Positions 19,160 through 25,012 of a DNA stretch of 40,046 nt are shown here, piece by piece; position 1 is the stretch's first letter; the number at the start of each line of letters is the position of its first letter. Location of the stretch: NCBI GenBank assembly GCA_021324255.1, contig JAJPJL010000081.1, forward strand, positions 1-40,046. Direction: 5' to 3'. Below the pieces are notes generated by a model. The model was not told the origin of the DNA and made no database searches. It was given only the letters and a program-made list of their open reading frames with translations. Source of the DNA: Bacillota bacterium. GTDB lineage: Bacteria > Sysuimicrobiota > Sysuimicrobiia > Sysuimicrobiales > Segetimicrobiaceae. The position numbers were made by a program, and so were the translations under genes.

Positions 19160-19270
19160 AAACTGATCAGTCATTCCGGTTTCAAACCGATCATCCAGTC
19201 CGGTAAGTCCTGATCACTCAGTCCGGTGGATTCCGATCACTCGGTCCGGTTACTCCTGATCACCGGGCTG
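19160..19270. repeat. Left subterminal repeat array of the IS (5 copies, about 23-bp period)
   Basis: GATCA cores start at 19165, 19189, 19212, 19235 and 19258, so the steps are 24, 23, 23 and 23 bp. Each core lies next to a TCCGGT-type box. The units are inverted relative to the right-end array. They are likely IstA-binding sites. Confidence 0.75.
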
Positions 19271-19466
19271 GAGCGCCGGATATGGTGTCCCCCGGAGTCG
19301 CCACCTCCTGTCTTGCCTACTGGAATGCCGCTTCTGATTCGGTGCTTCAGCACGGTCTCCTGGCGGCCCCCGAAGTGCCGGATGGAGGCGGACGGCTTGA
19401 CCGGCCGACAAACCAGGCCCCTGGGAGGCCCGTAGAGCCCCGGGACGACGGCGGGGAGGCATTGGG

Positions 19467-20216
19467 CTACCCCCCGTCAGACGCCTTCGCCGCCCGGAGC
19501 TTACGCATCGACTCGCCGCGCAAGGCGATCCGGTGGGCGGCGTGCACGATGCGATCCAAGAGTGCATCGCCCAGCGACGGGTCCGGAATCGTGCCATGCC
19601 AGGCGTCGACGGGCAGTTGGCTGGCGATGATGGTGGACCGCCGCATGTAGCGGTCGTCGATCACGTCCAAGAGCTCGCGGGCGTCGGCAACGGACATCGG
19701 CACGAGCCCCCACTCGTCCAAGATCAACACGTCGGTCTTGGCGAGCCGCGCGAGGAACCGGGGGTAGGACCCGTCCGCTTTGGCGATGCCGAGGTCCGCC
19801 AGGAGACGGGAGACGCGAAAGTAGCGGGCCGTGTACCCCTGCCGGCAGGCAGCATGGCCCAAGGCGCTGGCGATGTAGGTCTTCCCGACACCGGCGGGAC
19901 CGGTCACCAGGGTGGGGAGATGGTCCAGGATCCAGCGGCCCTGGGCCAGCGTGCGGATCAGGGCCCGGTCCAGGCCCCGCGGCACCGTGTAGTCGATGTC
20001 TTCGACGGTGGCGTTGAGTGGCAGCTTCGCTTCCTTAAGCCGCCGGGCGAGTCGGCGACTCTGGCGCCGGCTCCACTCCTGATCGGCGAGTAGGCCCAAG
20101 CGCTCATCGAACGACAGCTGATGGGCGTCGGCGTCGCGCAGTTGCACCTCATAGGCGTCGGCCATCCCCGCCAGGCGCAGCTCCCGCAGGGTCGTGAGCG
20201 TCTGCTGGGGCAGCAT
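19467..20216 (-). CDS. istB: IS21-family ATP-binding helper protein IstB
   Basis: 249 residues, normal for the family. AAA+ ATPase that forms the target-selection complex and stimulates the IstA transposase. The N-terminal helical domain (1-75) contains the motif RRQSRRLARRLKEAKLP. Walker A is VTGPAGVGKT (about 104-113) and Walker B is VLILDEWGL (about 163-171). The C-terminal part ends in IALRGESMRKLRAAKA, the conserved IstB tail. Its ATG overlaps the istA stop by one base (TGATG), so it is translationally coupled. Confidence 0.95.
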   Translation of the reverse strand: MLPQQTLTTLRELRLAGMADAYEVQLRDADAHQLSFDERLGLLADQEWSRRQSRRLARRLKEAKLPLNATVEDIDYTVPRGLDRALIRTLAQGRWILDHLPTLVTGPAGVGKTYIASALGHAACRQGYTARYFRVSRLLADLGIAKADGSYPRFLARLAKTDVLILDEWGLVPMSVADARELLDVIDDRYMRRSTIIASQLPVDAWHGTIPDPSLGDALLDRIVHAAHRIALRGESMRKLRAAKASDGG

Positions 20217-21775
20217 CAGTGCACCTCCTCCTTGTGGTCGCTGAAGTAGTCGGCGCCGCGGACGTTGGCGTGCGGGCCCACGGGGCGTAGCTCCGGGACC
20301 AGGTCAAGCGTCGTCTGATCGAGCCCGTGCTCGAGGATCGACTTGAGGCTCCGGTACGAATGGGCGCGCACCGCCAGCGCGCGGGCCGCGGCGGCTTCCA
20401 AGCGCCCCGGAGGATAGTGCGTGCCGAGCCGGATGATCCCCATGCACGTGCGATAGCCGTGCTCGGGGTGGGGCCGCTCCCGGAGGATCGTCTCGACGAG
20501 CTGGGCGGTGTGCGGGCCGACACTGCGCGCGTACTGGATCAGCCGCTCCGAGGACCAGTCGAGGTAGCGCCGATGCGCGGCCGGCCGATGAGCTGGATCG
20601 GTCACGTAGTGGCCGCGGCCGATCACGCGGGCATGACTGGCGACCCGCCGGCCATGATGCAGCAGCTCCACCGTGCGCGCGGTCAGGCGCACGTCCACGC
20701 GCTCCCCGACGAGCCGGTACGGCGCGCTGTAGAAGTTGTGCTCGACCGTGACGTGGTAATCGAAGGGGACCTTAGCCTGGCGCCACTCCGCAAACTCGTA
20801 AGGCGTCGGGGGCAGCGGCCGGAGGGCGGGACGATCGAGCGCCTCAAACAGCTGCCGCCGCGTGCCCGCGCGCTTCCGGAATGGCCGGTCGTTCAGCGCC
20901 TCGCGTAGCGGGGCGATCGCCTCGTTCCACTGCGCCACGCTCGTCATCGTCCGGTGGCGCAAGACGGCGAGGATCCACCGCTCGGCCAGGAGCACCGCCG
21001 CTTCGGCCTTCGCGTTGTCCCGGGGATGGTCCGTGCGGGTCGGCAGGATCACCGTGCCGTAGTGCGCCGCCCAATCAGCGTACGTCGGGTTGAGCGCCGG
21101 CTCGTACCAGCAGGGCTCCTCCACCCCCGTCTTCAGGTTGTCGCACACGACCGCTGCGGGGACGCCGTGGAAGTACTCCAGCGCATGTGTGTTGCCGCCG
21201 ATCCACCGCGGCAACGTCCGATCCTCATGGGCCTCCGCAAACGTCATGGAACTGGCGCCCAGCGCCGCCACGAACAAGGACGCGTCGCGGATCTCGCCGG
21301 TCCGCGGATTCACGACCGGCAGCCGCGGGCCCGCATAGTCGACGAACATCTTCTCGCCGGCCCGGTAGGTCTGCCGGAGCACGACGTCCTGGGTGGCCTG
21401 CCAGCGCGCGAAGTGCTGACAGAACTGCGTGTACTGTAGACCGTCTGGATGCCCGTGCTTGTACTCGAGCCATAGCAGCTGCAAGGTGACGCCTTTCCGC
21501 CGCAGTTCCCGATCGACGGTGGGCCAGTCCGGCTCGGGCCGGACGCGGGGCCGGCCTTGATTCCCCGTATACAGGGCACGCTCCAAGCCGGCGTCATCCA
21601 GCTCTGGCGGCAGCGGCCACCGAAGCTCCGCCGCCGTCGCCCGCCGCACGACCTCGTGCACGCTCCCGTACGACACGCCGAGACTGTGGGCGATGGACCG
21701 CATGCTGAGTCCCTGGAACCAGTGGAGCCGAAGAATGTCCCTGATCTGCCGCATCACGAGCCTCCGATTAGCCAC
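20216..21775 (-). CDS. istA: IS21-family transposase IstA
   Basis: 519 residues. The N-terminal helix-turn-helix region (MRQIRDILRLHW, then GLSMRSIAHSLGVSYGSVHE) binds the element's ends. The DDE catalytic core includes MFVDYAGPRLPV (first Asp), GVPAAVVCDNLKTGV (second Asp) and a downstream DNAKAEAAVLLAERWI region supplying the glutamate. GTG 21775 is chosen because AGGAGG lies 9 nt upstream; the frame stays open to 21892 into the right-end repeats without homology. ATG 21754 is an alternative. No frameshift or internal stop is present. Confidence 0.94.
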   Translation of the reverse strand: MANRRLVMRQIRDILRLHWFQGLSMRSIAHSLGVSYGSVHEVVRRATAAELRWPLPPELDDAGLERALYTGNQGRPRVRPEPDWPTVDRELRRKGVTLQLLWLEYKHGHPDGLQYTQFCQHFARWQATQDVVLRQTYRAGEKMFVDYAGPRLPVVNPRTGEIRDASLFVAALGASSMTFAEAHEDRTLPRWIGGNTHALEYFHGVPAAVVCDNLKTGVEEPCWYEPALNPTYADWAAHYGTVILPTRTDHPRDNAKAEAAVLLAERWILAVLRHRTMTSVAQWNEAIAPLREALNDRPFRKRAGTRRQLFEALDRPALRPLPPTPYEFAEWRQAKVPFDYHVTVEHNFYSAPYRLVGERVDVRLTARTVELLHHGRRVASHARVIGRGHYVTDPAHRPAAHRRYLDWSSERLIQYARSVGPHTAQLVETILRERPHPEHGYRTCMGIIRLGTHYPPGRLEAAAARALAVRAHSYRSLKSILEHGLDQTTLDLVPELRPVGPHANVRGADYFSDHKEEVH

Positions 21776-21883
21776 GCCCCGTGTCCTCCTCTCCGTCCGG
21801 TTTGAAACCGGTTGCGGAGGACACGGGCCGGAATCCTGGCACCGTGAGACCCCGAGGGGCCCCGGCGCTCCGGAGGGGCCGCC

Positions 21884-22026
21884 GGTGATCACGAATTACC
21901 GGAATCGGTGATCAAGATTTTCCGAAACGGGTGATCAGGAATTACCGAAAGAGGTGATCGGATTGAAACCGGAACAGGTGATCAGGAATTACCGAAACGG
22001 GTGATCAGTTTGGTCCGGAATCTACA
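21884..22026. repeat. Right subterminal repeat array of the IS (6 copies, about 23-bp period)
   Basis: GGTGATC cores start at 21884, 21907, 21930, 21953, 21977 and 22000, with steps of 23, 23, 23, 24 and 23 bp. The consensus unit resembles GGTGATCAGGAATTACCGAA. The array reaches almost to the terminus at 22026 and mirrors the left array. Confidence 0.8.
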
Positions 22027-22032
22027 TCTATG
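22027..22032 (+). repeat. Target-site duplication, right copy
   Basis: TCTATG directly follows the CA terminus of the IS and matches 19140-19145. Confidence 0.8.
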
Positions 22033-22304
22033 CGCATAGGGCTCAACCCGGGCCGCCTTGCGTACTTCAAGCAGGTCCTCGACAAGCTTCGCATCGATCC
22101 GGGCGGGAAAAAGGTTCTCGACGTCGGATGTGGCGGGGGCTCTTGGCCGAAGAATTTGCGCGGCTGGGGTGTGCCGTCACAGGGATTGACCCATCGGCAC
22201 CGTCCCTGGACACCGCCAGAAAGCACGCCGGCACCTCAGGCCTGTTGATTGACTACGAAGTTGGAACGGGCGAACGCATCCCCTGCGCTGAACCAGTGGA
22301 TTAG
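22027..22304 (+). pseudogene. 3' fragment of the interrupted UbiG-like methyltransferase, also frameshifted and truncated
   Basis: Continues the interrupted gene with RIGLNPGRLAYFKQVLDKL and the SAM-binding motif KKVLDVGCGGG. At the G5 run 22135-22139 one base is missing compared with an intact frame. In the shifted frame from 22140 it reads LLAEEFARLGCAVTGIDPSA, then SLDTARKHAGTSGLLIDYEV, then GERIPCAEPVD and a stop at 22302-22304. The C-terminal half expected after this motif (about 150 residues in UbiG) is absent. The gene is therefore dead three times over: IS insertion, deletion frameshift and 3' truncation about 30 bp from the tRNA-Asn 3' end. Confidence 0.8.
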
Positions 22305-22336
22305 CAGCCGAACCGCATCGCTCTGTAGGCCTTGAT

Positions 22337-22411
22337 TGGCTCCTCGGGTAGGACTCGAACCTACAACCCTCCGGTTAACAGCCGGATGCTCTACCATTGA
22401 GCTACCGAGGA
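22337..22411 (-). tRNA. tRNA-Asn (anticodon GTT)
   Basis: On the minus strand the acceptor stem TCCTCGG pairs with CCGAGGA. The D-arm is GCTC-AATGGTA-GAGC, the anticodon arm TCCGG-CTGTTAA-CCGGA with anticodon GTT, and the T-arm GTAGG-TTCGAGT-CCTAC. The discriminator G and the CCA end are encoded (22337-22340). Total 75 nt including CCA. Confidence 0.97.
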
Positions 22412-22422
22412 ACGGTCCCCTG

Positions 22423-22452
22423 ATTGTATGGAGCCCACCGCGCGACTGTCAA
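22423..22452 (-). promoter_or_regulatory. Promoter of tRNA-Asn
   Basis: Minus strand TTGACA (22447-22452), an 18-bp spacer and TACAAT (22423-22428). Transcription would start about 5 nt before the mature tRNA 5' end at 22411. The -35 is part of an inverted repeat shared with the divergent promoter. Confidence 0.8.
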
Positions 22453-22472
22453 GCCTTGTTGCCTTGACAGTC
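22444..22472. repeat. Inverted repeat formed by two back-to-back -35 elements
   Basis: GACTGTCAAG (22444-22453) and CTTGACAGTC (22463-22472) are perfect inverted copies separated by 9 bp. Each arm contains a consensus TTGACA facing outward. Confidence 0.85.
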
Positions 22473-22493
22473 ACGGAAGCCGGTGGCAATAAT
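22464..22493 (+). promoter_or_regulatory. Promoter of the MFS-mgtC-perM genes
   Basis: TTGACA (22464-22469), an 18-bp spacer and AATAAT (22488-22493), about 30 bp upstream of the MFS start codon. It is divergent from the tRNA-Asn promoter. Confidence 0.75.
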
Positions 22494-22522
22494 GGAATCC
22501 GTTTCGGGAGGGCTTCCTCTCA

Positions 22523-23746
22523 ATGGCAATGGCAACGGATTCGCGGCGGTCCGGACCGCCGCCCCTCGGGAATCGAGCGCTAATCGTCCTTTTTTTGGCC
22601 ATTTTCATCGTGATGATGGGCTTCGGCATCGTGCTGCCCGTCCTGCAGTTCTACGCCCGCGATGTCGGCGCGACGCCGTTCCAGATCGGCCTGCTGGCTA
22701 CGAGTTACGCGTTCATGCAATTCTTGTTCGCACCCCTCTGGGGCGGGCTGAGCGACCGGATCGGGCGGAAACCCGTGTTTTCGGTGGGTCTCCTCGGCTA
22801 CGCCGCGTCGTTCGTGATGTTCGGCCTCTCCCATCAGGTCTGGCAGTTGTTCGTCGCCCGGATTCTCGGCGGCGTGCTGAGCGCCGCGACGCTGCCCACG
22901 GCGATGGCCTACATCGGCGACACCACCTCCGAGGAGCGCCGGGGGGGCGGCATGGGGATGATGGGCGCGGCCATGGGCCTGGGCTTTACGATCGGGCCCG
23001 GCATCGGCGGCCTCCTCGGCCGCCACAGCCTGTCGCTGCCGTTCTTCGTCGGCGCGGCGCTCGCGGTCGCCACGCTCCTCCTCAGTTGGGGATCGCTCCC
23101 CGAGCCGGTTCGCCATGACTCGTCCGCGGAGCGCCCGTCCCGGGTCGATTCGCTGCGCCGGGCCCTCGCCGGCCCCCTCGCCTACTACTACGTCGTGACG
23201 CTCGTCGCGGCGTTTGCGCTGGCCGCGCTCGAAGCCACCTACGCGCTATTTGCGCAGGACCGGCTGCACCTGTCGAGCACCGGAGGCGCCGGCGCCATCG
23301 GCGTCGTCTTTGTCGTCGTCGGACTCGTGCAGGCCGCGATCCTCGGCGGCCTGGTCGGTCGCCTGATCAGCCGATGGGGCGAGGAGCGGCTGGTCCGCGG
23401 CGGCCTGGTCGTCGCCGCGATCGGCTACCTTCTGGTCACGACCACGCACGATATCGCCACGCTAGCAATCTACGCCGCGATCGCGGGGGCGGGGCATTCG
23501 TTGATGCGGCCGAGCGTCGCGTCGCTGGTCTCGAAGCGCTCTCCAGGCTCCCAGGGACTCTCGATCGGCATCATGGACTCGTTCGACAGCCTCGGCCGCA
23601 TCCTCGGCCCGGCCTGGGGCGGCTGGATCTACCACGCGGGGATCGCCCTCCCGTACCTCGGCGCCGCCGTGGCGCTCGTGTTGACCCTGGGGTTCTCGTT
23701 CTCCGGGGCCGTGCGGCACGTCCCGGCTCACGCGGGCTCCGAATAG
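22523..23746 (+). CDS. MFS drug-exporter-like transporter (DHA1/TetA-like)
   Basis: 407 residues, 12 predicted transmembrane segments. Motif A GGLSDRIGRKPV between TM2 and TM3, ARILGGVLSAATLPTAMAYI in TM4, and the antiporter motif GLGFTIGPGIGGLLG in TM5 identify a DHA1-type proton antiporter (multidrug or tetracycline-like). The substrate cannot be assigned. ATG 22523 has GGGAGG about 11 nt upstream. The next gene begins 3 bp after the stop. It is transcribed from a TTGACA/AATAAT promoter divergent from tRNA-Asn. Confidence 0.87.
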   Translation: MAMATDSRRSGPPPLGNRALIVLFLAIFIVMMGFGIVLPVLQFYARDVGATPFQIGLLATSYAFMQFLFAPLWGGLSDRIGRKPVFSVGLLGYAASFVMFGLSHQVWQLFVARILGGVLSAATLPTAMAYIGDTTSEERRGGGMGMMGAAMGLGFTIGPGIGGLLGRHSLSLPFFVGAALAVATLLLSWGSLPEPVRHDSSAERPSRVDSLRRALAGPLAYYYVVTLVAAFALAALEATYALFAQDRLHLSSTGGAGAIGVVFVVVGLVQAAILGGLVGRLISRWGEERLVRGGLVVAAIGYLLVTTTHDIATLAIYAAIAGAGHSLMRPSVASLVSKRSPGSQGLSIGIMDSFDSLGRILGPAWGGWIYHAGIALPYLGAAVALVLTLGFSFSGAVRHVPAHAGSE

Positions 23747-23749
23747 CGC

Positions 23750-25012
23750 GTGCCCCAGCTCTCACCGCAGGGCGCAGACTTCCTCATCCTGATGGAGCGC
23801 GTGGGCATCGCGCTCGCGATCGGTATGATGGTCGGCATGGAGCGGGAGTGGGCGCATAAGGAGGTCGGCGTCCGCACGTTTGCGTTCGTCGCGCTCGCGT
23901 TCACGCTCGCGTGGACGATCTCGCCGGTCGCCACCTACGTCCTCCTGGGCGCGCTGATCCCCCTCGTCACCCTGCTGAACTGGCGCAGCTTCACGCGGGA
24001 CGGCACGCTCGAGATGACGACGACCGTGGCCCTCCTGGCCATGGCCCTCCTCGGCATCCTCGTGGGGCAGGGCCTCTTGCTCGTCGCCGCCGCGTGCGGC
24101 GTCGTGATGACGGCGCTCCTGGCGTGGAAGTTCGAGGTGGTCCGTTTCGCGGGCGCGGTCACCAACGAGGAAATCCGCGGAGCGCTGGTTCTCGGCGTCA
24201 GCGCGCTCGTCGTCTACCCCATCCTGCCTTCCGGGACCGTCGACCCGTGGCACCTGATCGACCTGCGGTCCGCCTGGGTGGTCGTCCTGGTCATCTCCGC
24301 GATCGCGTTCACCAACTACGTGCTGCTGCGCATCTACGGCACGCGCGGCATCCGGTGGACCGGGTTACTCGGCGGCCTCGTGAACAGCACCGCCACGGTC
24401 GCCGAACTCGCGAGCCGGGCCCGCAACGATCCGGCGCGGCTGTCGGTCTTCGCGCTCCTCGGAATGGCCACCGCGAACACGGCGATGTTGATGCGCAACG
24501 GCCTCATCCTCGGCGTCTTCGACGTGAACGCGCTGTCCTACGGCTGGCTCGGGGTGACGCTGATGGTGGTGGTCAGCGCGGTCGTGATGTACCGGATCCG
24601 CATCCGGGACACGGCCACGGAACCGCTGCGGATGCGCTCTCCCATCTCGGTGCGTCAGGCCCTGACGTTCGGCGCTCTGTTCCTGCTGATCACGCTGGCC
24701 GGCGAACTCGCGAACCGGGCGTTTGGGCAAACGGGCTTCCTGATCGTGGCCGCGGTGGGCGGGCTGGTGAGCAGCGCGTCGACCTCCGCCGCGGCCGGCA
24801 TTCTCGCCGCCAAGGGGACCCTCGCCCCCGAGCTCGCGGGCTACGGTGTCGTCGTCACGTCGATGGCCAGCCTGGTGTTCCACGTGCCCATGGCGCAGAT
24901 GGCGGGCCGGAACCAGGAGGTCACGCGACGCCTCGCCGGGCTCTCCGCGGTCATCCTGGCGGCCGGCGTCCTGGGACTCATCGCGGAGGCCGTGTGGAGC
25001 GGCCGCCCCTAG
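23750..25012 (+). CDS. MgtC/SapB-DUF4010 membrane protein
   Basis: 420 residues, almost entirely membrane segments. The N-terminal third is MgtC-like (FLILMERVGIALAIGMMVGM, then EREWAHKEVGVRTF and a conserved TRDGTLEMTTTVALL region). The C-terminal part (GLLGGLVNSTATVAELASRA, FGQTGFLIVAAVGGLVSSAS) matches the DUF4010 transporter-like module usually fused to it. The function is unknown; MgtC relatives modulate Mg2+ homeostasis or ATP synthase, and DUF4010 is uncharacterised. GTG 23750 starts 3 bp after the MFS stop, so it belongs to the same transcript. Confidence 0.85.
   Translation: MPQLSPQGADFLILMERVGIALAIGMMVGMEREWAHKEVGVRTFAFVALAFTLAWTISPVATYVLLGALIPLVTLLNWRSFTRDGTLEMTTTVALLAMALLGILVGQGLLLVAAACGVVMTALLAWKFEVVRFAGAVTNEEIRGALVLGVSALVVYPILPSGTVDPWHLIDLRSAWVVVLVISAIAFTNYVLLRIYGTRGIRWTGLLGGLVNSTATVAELASRARNDPARLSVFALLGMATANTAMLMRNGLILGVFDVNALSYGWLGVTLMVVVSAVVMYRIRIRDTATEPLRMRSPISVRQALTFGALFLLITLAGELANRAFGQTGFLIVAAVGGLVSSASTSAAAGILAAKGTLAPELAGYGVVVTSMASLVFHVPMAQMAGRNQEVTRRLAGLSAVILAAGVLGLIAEAVWSGRP

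Follow-up and report, generated by a model that had tools for sequence, protein, structure and literature searches.

The tRNA-Asn/MFS intergenic region

The window, i.e., the complete stretch of DNA analyzed (40,046 nucleotides), is one whole contig (C5) of a 3.74-Mb genome in 142 contigs. A tRNA-Asn gene and the gene for an MFS transporter lie 111 bp apart in it and are transcribed divergently, and the promoters of both are held in that distance. In base-pair order, the features are as follows.

22337..22411, minus strand: tRNA-Asn (anticodon GTT), tRNA gene search
22423..22428, minus strand: -10 hexamer TACAAT of the tRNA promoter, read from the sequence and promoter scan
22444-22453, no strand: left arm of the inverted repeat, GACTGTCAAG, repeat search
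22447..22452, minus strand: -35 hexamer TTGACA of the tRNA promoter, spacer 18, read from the sequence and promoter scan
22463-22472, no strand: right arm of the inverted repeat, CTTGACAGTC, repeat search
22464..22469, plus strand: -35 hexamer TTGACA of the MFS promoter, spacer 18, read from the sequence and promoter scan
22488..22493, plus strand: -10 hexamer AATAAT of the MFS promoter, read from the sequence and promoter scan
22506..22512, plus strand: GGGAGGG, probable ribosome-binding site, read from the sequence
22523..23746, plus strand: MFS transporter, 407 aa, ATG at 22523 (PF07690)
23750..25012, plus strand: MgtC/DUF4010 protein, 3 bases past the MFS stop codon
24846..26231, plus strand: open frame of an AI-2E family transporter

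The start of the last frame was assigned mechanically and overlaps the preceding gene, and the true start is therefore probably further on. Of the 45 tRNA genes found in the genome, which is estimated to be 94.85% complete, only this one is for tRNA-Asn, and Rfam found no structured RNA other than tRNA within 21800-23000. The top NCBIfam scores of the MFS protein were to Tet-type efflux models, far under the cut-offs of those models. Beyond the tRNA gene, the neighbor on that side is an IS21-like element, and membrane-protein and ABC-transporter genes lie downstream on the other. The element (19160-22019) encodes IstB, as identified by Pfam, and an IstA-like transposase, and its ends carry arrays of ~23-bp repeats in mutually inverted orientation; blastn found no match to it in stretches from seven relatives. 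By eye, the DNA between the element and the tRNA (22020-22310) looks like a broken methyltransferase gene.

Eleven bases separate the tRNA gene from its -10 hexamer. Placing transcription initiation 7 bp past each -10 puts the predicted tRNA start site at ~22416, with a leader of ~5 nt, and the predicted MFS start site at ~22500. The preliminary description of this DNA had reported a perfect 10-bp inverted repeat with a 9-bp gap that holds both -35 hexamers, and this was right to the base: the repeat totals 29 bp, and if the arms are stretched to 22441 and 22475, they match at 92% over 13 bp. In both directions, the hexamer is preceded by C and followed by GTC, and the gap from hexamer to hexamer is 11 bp. 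The 18-bp spacers to TACAAT (leftward) and AATAAT (rightward) that it had also described were confirmed by a promoter scan of 21500-23500, which returned two sites, exactly this pair, vs a mean of 0.3 (sd 0.7) in shuffled sequences. Both promoters score 11/12 to consensus, each with its 18-bp spacer.

Frequency of the repeat and of its components

When the 111-bp intergenic region was dinucleotide-shuffled 20,000 times, only 39 of the shuffles contained a perfect inverted repeat this long or longer (10 bp or more, gap 20 or less); the repeat therefore has a cause. The 40-kb window as a whole contains 20 overlapping inverted repeats of that kind, which reduce to 11 distinct places, the tRNA-Asn/MFS site included. 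Given two facing TTGACA boxes, the chance that the three bases GTC also match is ~0.025. The genome has a single copy of the 29-bp repeat, even when the gap between its arms is allowed to vary from 5 to 13, and CTTGACAGTC occurs four times vs ~2.9 expected from the base composition of the window. Its two sites elsewhere comprise one that is promoter-like by eye (L034) and one within a long reading frame (L035).

Two other ways of accounting for the arms were tried and rejected. For a cruciform or hairpin, the single strand of the window's repeat has a folding energy of -10.3 kcal/mol (z -2.44), which only 4 of 200 shuffles equaled; this counts against two merely coincident promoter boxes, but the arms themselves explain the energy. 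Nor is GTC a general extension of tRNA promoters: upstream regions were scored for 30 of the 45 tRNA genes (the remaining 15 were read for anticodon only), and in three of the 30 the best match has a perfect TTGACA, with GTC following the hexamer at tRNA-Asn only.

In the 12 genomes of the family, facing TTGACA pairs at most 30 bp apart number 28, vs one for a reversed-pattern control, and facing boxes as such are therefore non-random in these genomes. The tRNA-Asn/MFS locus accounts for five of the 28.

Comparison with family genomes

The comparison set comprised 12 genomes of the window's family, with G000 being the window's own; loci L036-L040 were omitted from all counts as duplicates of G001, G011, G005, G010, and G008. 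The tRNA promoter is recognizable in all 12, with a spacer of 17 or 18. Its -35 is TTGACA in ten and TTGACC in two (G003 and G011), and its -10 is TACAAT in eight, TAGAAT in three, and TAAAAT in one. The MFS promoter has the form TTGACA-N17/18-RATAAT in 10 of the 12, the spacer being 18 in nine and 17 in G004, and the -10 being AATAAT in four and GATAAT in six; G007 and G009 have a TATAAT -10 without TTGACA. G009 was counted in this way because its 75-bp gap involves a non-consensus box. Both sets of elements thus recur across the family, which bears out the preliminary description of a divergent promoter pair serving the tRNA-Asn and transporter genes.

In genus g3 (L005, L008, and L009, i.e., G009, G004, and G007), the MFS -10 ends 6 bp ahead of the GTG that opens the reading frame. 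The MFS mRNA of this genus may be leaderless, unlike that of the window's gene with its ribosome-binding site.

The two genes are adjacent and divergent in 10 of the 12 genomes, and the DNA between them varies greatly. Among the ten genomes with both boxes, six, from two genera, have hexamer gaps of 7-12 bp (G000, 11; G002, 11; G008, 12; G010, 8; G006, 7; G011, 8), and the other four have gaps of 72-1455 bp (G005, 72; G001, 92; G004, 134; G003, 1455). Both genes of G003 are on one small contig with ~1.57 kb between them, and each keeps its own promoter. In G007, the genes are at the ends of two contigs, again each with its own promoter, and the contig ends carry similar inverted sequence; the tail following the tRNA looks by eye like the end of a transposase gene, and what separates the two genes there looks like an insertion sequence. 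Each promoter is therefore conserved by itself in family genomes that differ in intervening DNA.

The closest relative as judged by the transporter (96% of residues) is G001. Its DNA is 97.5% identical to that of G000 over the 118 bases of the tRNA, the tRNA promoter, and the left arm, and 90.8% identical over 3,776 bases starting between the arms, yet it has 81 more bases than G000 between the boxes. Since the gap is 11 bp in the more distant G002, the simplest account of the additional bases is that they were inserted in G001. The left arm of G001 has GCC vs GTC in its right arm. The preliminary description had named a loss of symmetry in a close relative keeping both genes as an observation that would refute it, and this is what G001 provides: a 92-bp gap and a mismatch in GTC, with both promoters present. 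That GTC is common to both arms is correct for the window, but its conservation is not, as the full three-base match after the boxes was found in G000 only among the ten genomes with both boxes.

Outside the family, the adjacency scan took in L014-L031 and L041-L046 and left out L047-L050. No tRNA-Asn was found near the MFS relative in the 18 loci L014-L031, nor near an MFS gene in L041-L046, six relatives that are more distant. In L018, a tRNA-Gln was called within the transporter gene, probably spuriously. A plasmid origin was also considered and rejected: 102 records matched, but no place in them spanned 80% of the query, and among the 20 matches listed, all but two involved the tRNA end only.

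The repeat as a possible operator

Tet-type MFS efflux genes are often under a divergent operator, and the perfect 10-bp arms would suit a dimeric regulator acting on the exporter and the tRNA jointly. Both points favor the suggestion, made in the preliminary description, that the repeat could be a regulator's operator. We nevertheless consider an operator highly improbable. Half-site spacing ranges over 7-134 bp even where both genes adjoin, and over 7-1455 bp in all, and bases outside TTGACA are unmatched between the arms in relatives, so that neither spacing nor arm sequence has been kept. An operator is thus unsupported, as is a functional symmetric unit: the spacing and the GTC match vary, and CTTGACAGTC is near its chance frequency. 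There is no adjoining regulator gene within the window, and the site is the only one genome-wide. With a single tRNA-Asn gene found, repression would also be costly, making a repressor over its promoter unlikely.

A palindrome built from the same hexamers indicates how differently an operator-like site behaves. A pattern search, with the spacing preset at 6 bp, found the LacI-type operator-like palindrome TGTCAAAYCGRTTTGACA at nine sites in eight genomes (L126, L127, L130, L132, and L135-L139). A LacI-family regulator adjoins it in the three loci searched with Pfam (L127, L130, and L132), and its far side has a solute-binding protein gene in L132 and an FAD oxidoreductase gene in L130. As the preset spacing made the first search uninformative in this respect, the LacI-type gene was located first (E <=1e-80), and its surroundings were then scanned for facing hexamers, with every gap from 0 to 30 allowed (L140-L148, upstream of the LacI-type gene). 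The gene is present in 9 of the 12 family genomes at that threshold; eight loci have exactly one facing pair, each with a gap of 6, and the ninth (G002) has a 6-bp pair with one hexamer mismatch. The 6-bp spacing and a CG center are therefore held in all nine genomes with the regulator gene, in contrast to the spacing at tRNA-Asn/MFS. The facing TTGACA boxes of TGTCAAAYCGRTTTGACA themselves resemble the -35 boxes of a divergent promoter pair. A second recurring palindrome, TGTCAA-N5-TTGACA, was noted at four sites in four genomes (G001:C43, L124; G009:C61, L123; G000:C91:6510-6526; G006:C44:134819-134835).

Two probably independent promoters

The site very probably consists of two independent housekeeping promoters (sigma-70/sigma-A type) placed back to back, in which the repeat is simply the shared consensus box present once per direction. 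The consensus -35, TTGACA with its preceding C, would generate the inverted repeat when used in each direction, and the three further matching bases (GTC) would be chance. Each promoter would be used separately by the housekeeping holoenzyme and would be unregulated. With start sites predicted to be ~84 bp apart, the polymerases would come into contact back to back near -42, and their upstream (alpha-CTD) contacts would overlap. Any influence of one promoter on the other is accordingly expected to be mild. The pair has the properties of separate divergent sigma-70 promoters, i.e., two complete outward -35/-10 sets with spacers within 16-18 bp.

It is also conceivable, though we judge it quite unlikely, that the promoters are an evolved coupled pair in which the exporter follows tRNA-Asn expression via crowding or divergent supercoiling. 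The ~84 bp between start sites would suit such an arrangement, as would the tight spacing in 6 of the 12 genomes and the adjacency of the genes in 10, and of the seven facing CTTGACA pairs (at most 30 bp apart) in the 12 genomes, five are at the tRNA-Asn/MFS locus. Set against this are the four genomes that retain both boxes at a spacing of 72-1455 bp and the apparent insertion sequence between the genes of G007, which retains the promoters of both. In addition, the direct polymerase clashes of promoters with shared elements are stated in PMC12825309 not to affect separate divergent promoters. Supercoiling between divergent units can link neighbors (PMC4469952), and a mild influence is therefore possible at this locus as well. 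The tight packing and the non-random occurrence of facing boxes count against full independence of the promoters, in that the closeness of the boxes may be tolerated or even favored by selection, although shared descent together with a short intergenic region would explain it too.

Because six genomes have the tight spacing of 7-12 bp, a coupling effect in those genomes is possible. A more specific proposal, that in the tight genomes the facing -35 boxes share upstream polymerase contacts, such that tRNA-Asn initiation tunes the exporter operon without a regulator protein, strikes us as very unlikely. If true, efflux capacity would be tied to translation capacity, again with no regulator protein being required.

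Comparison with known systems

An open-access literature search found no title or abstract on the tRNA-Asn/MFS locus, although we do not claim that it is absent from print. Divergent arrangements as such are common: about 25% of E. coli genes are in divergently transcribed pairs (PMC4469952). Warman et al. (PMC12825309) distinguish separate divergent promoters from "bidirectional" ones, which have one shared symmetric -10 and start sites that are mostly 18 bp apart, with distances of 10, 18, or 23 bp being common. The tRNA-Asn/MFS site resembles bidirectional promoters in transcribing divergently from pseudo-symmetric DNA but differs from the latter, as described in that source, in having separate -10s (22423-22428 and 22488-22493) and predicted starts ~84 bp apart. 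With separate divergent sigma-70 promoters, it has in common two full -35/-10 sets directed outward from a short intergenic region; unlike the usual case, its -35 boxes are perfect and 11 bp apart, and hence they read as an inverted repeat. The LacI-type palindrome likewise has facing TTGACA boxes between divergent genes, but its fixed 6-bp spacing, CG center, and adjoining regulator have no counterpart at the tRNA-Asn/MFS site (for the regulator, within the window).

By itself, the site is of little importance, and its explanation is ordinary. The case does show that two outward consensus -35 boxes can mimic a palindromic operator, and that relatives tell the two apart. As judged from the sequences compared, the original observation was correct, and the tRNA-Asn/MFS site appears to be an ordinary divergent pair of a known kind.
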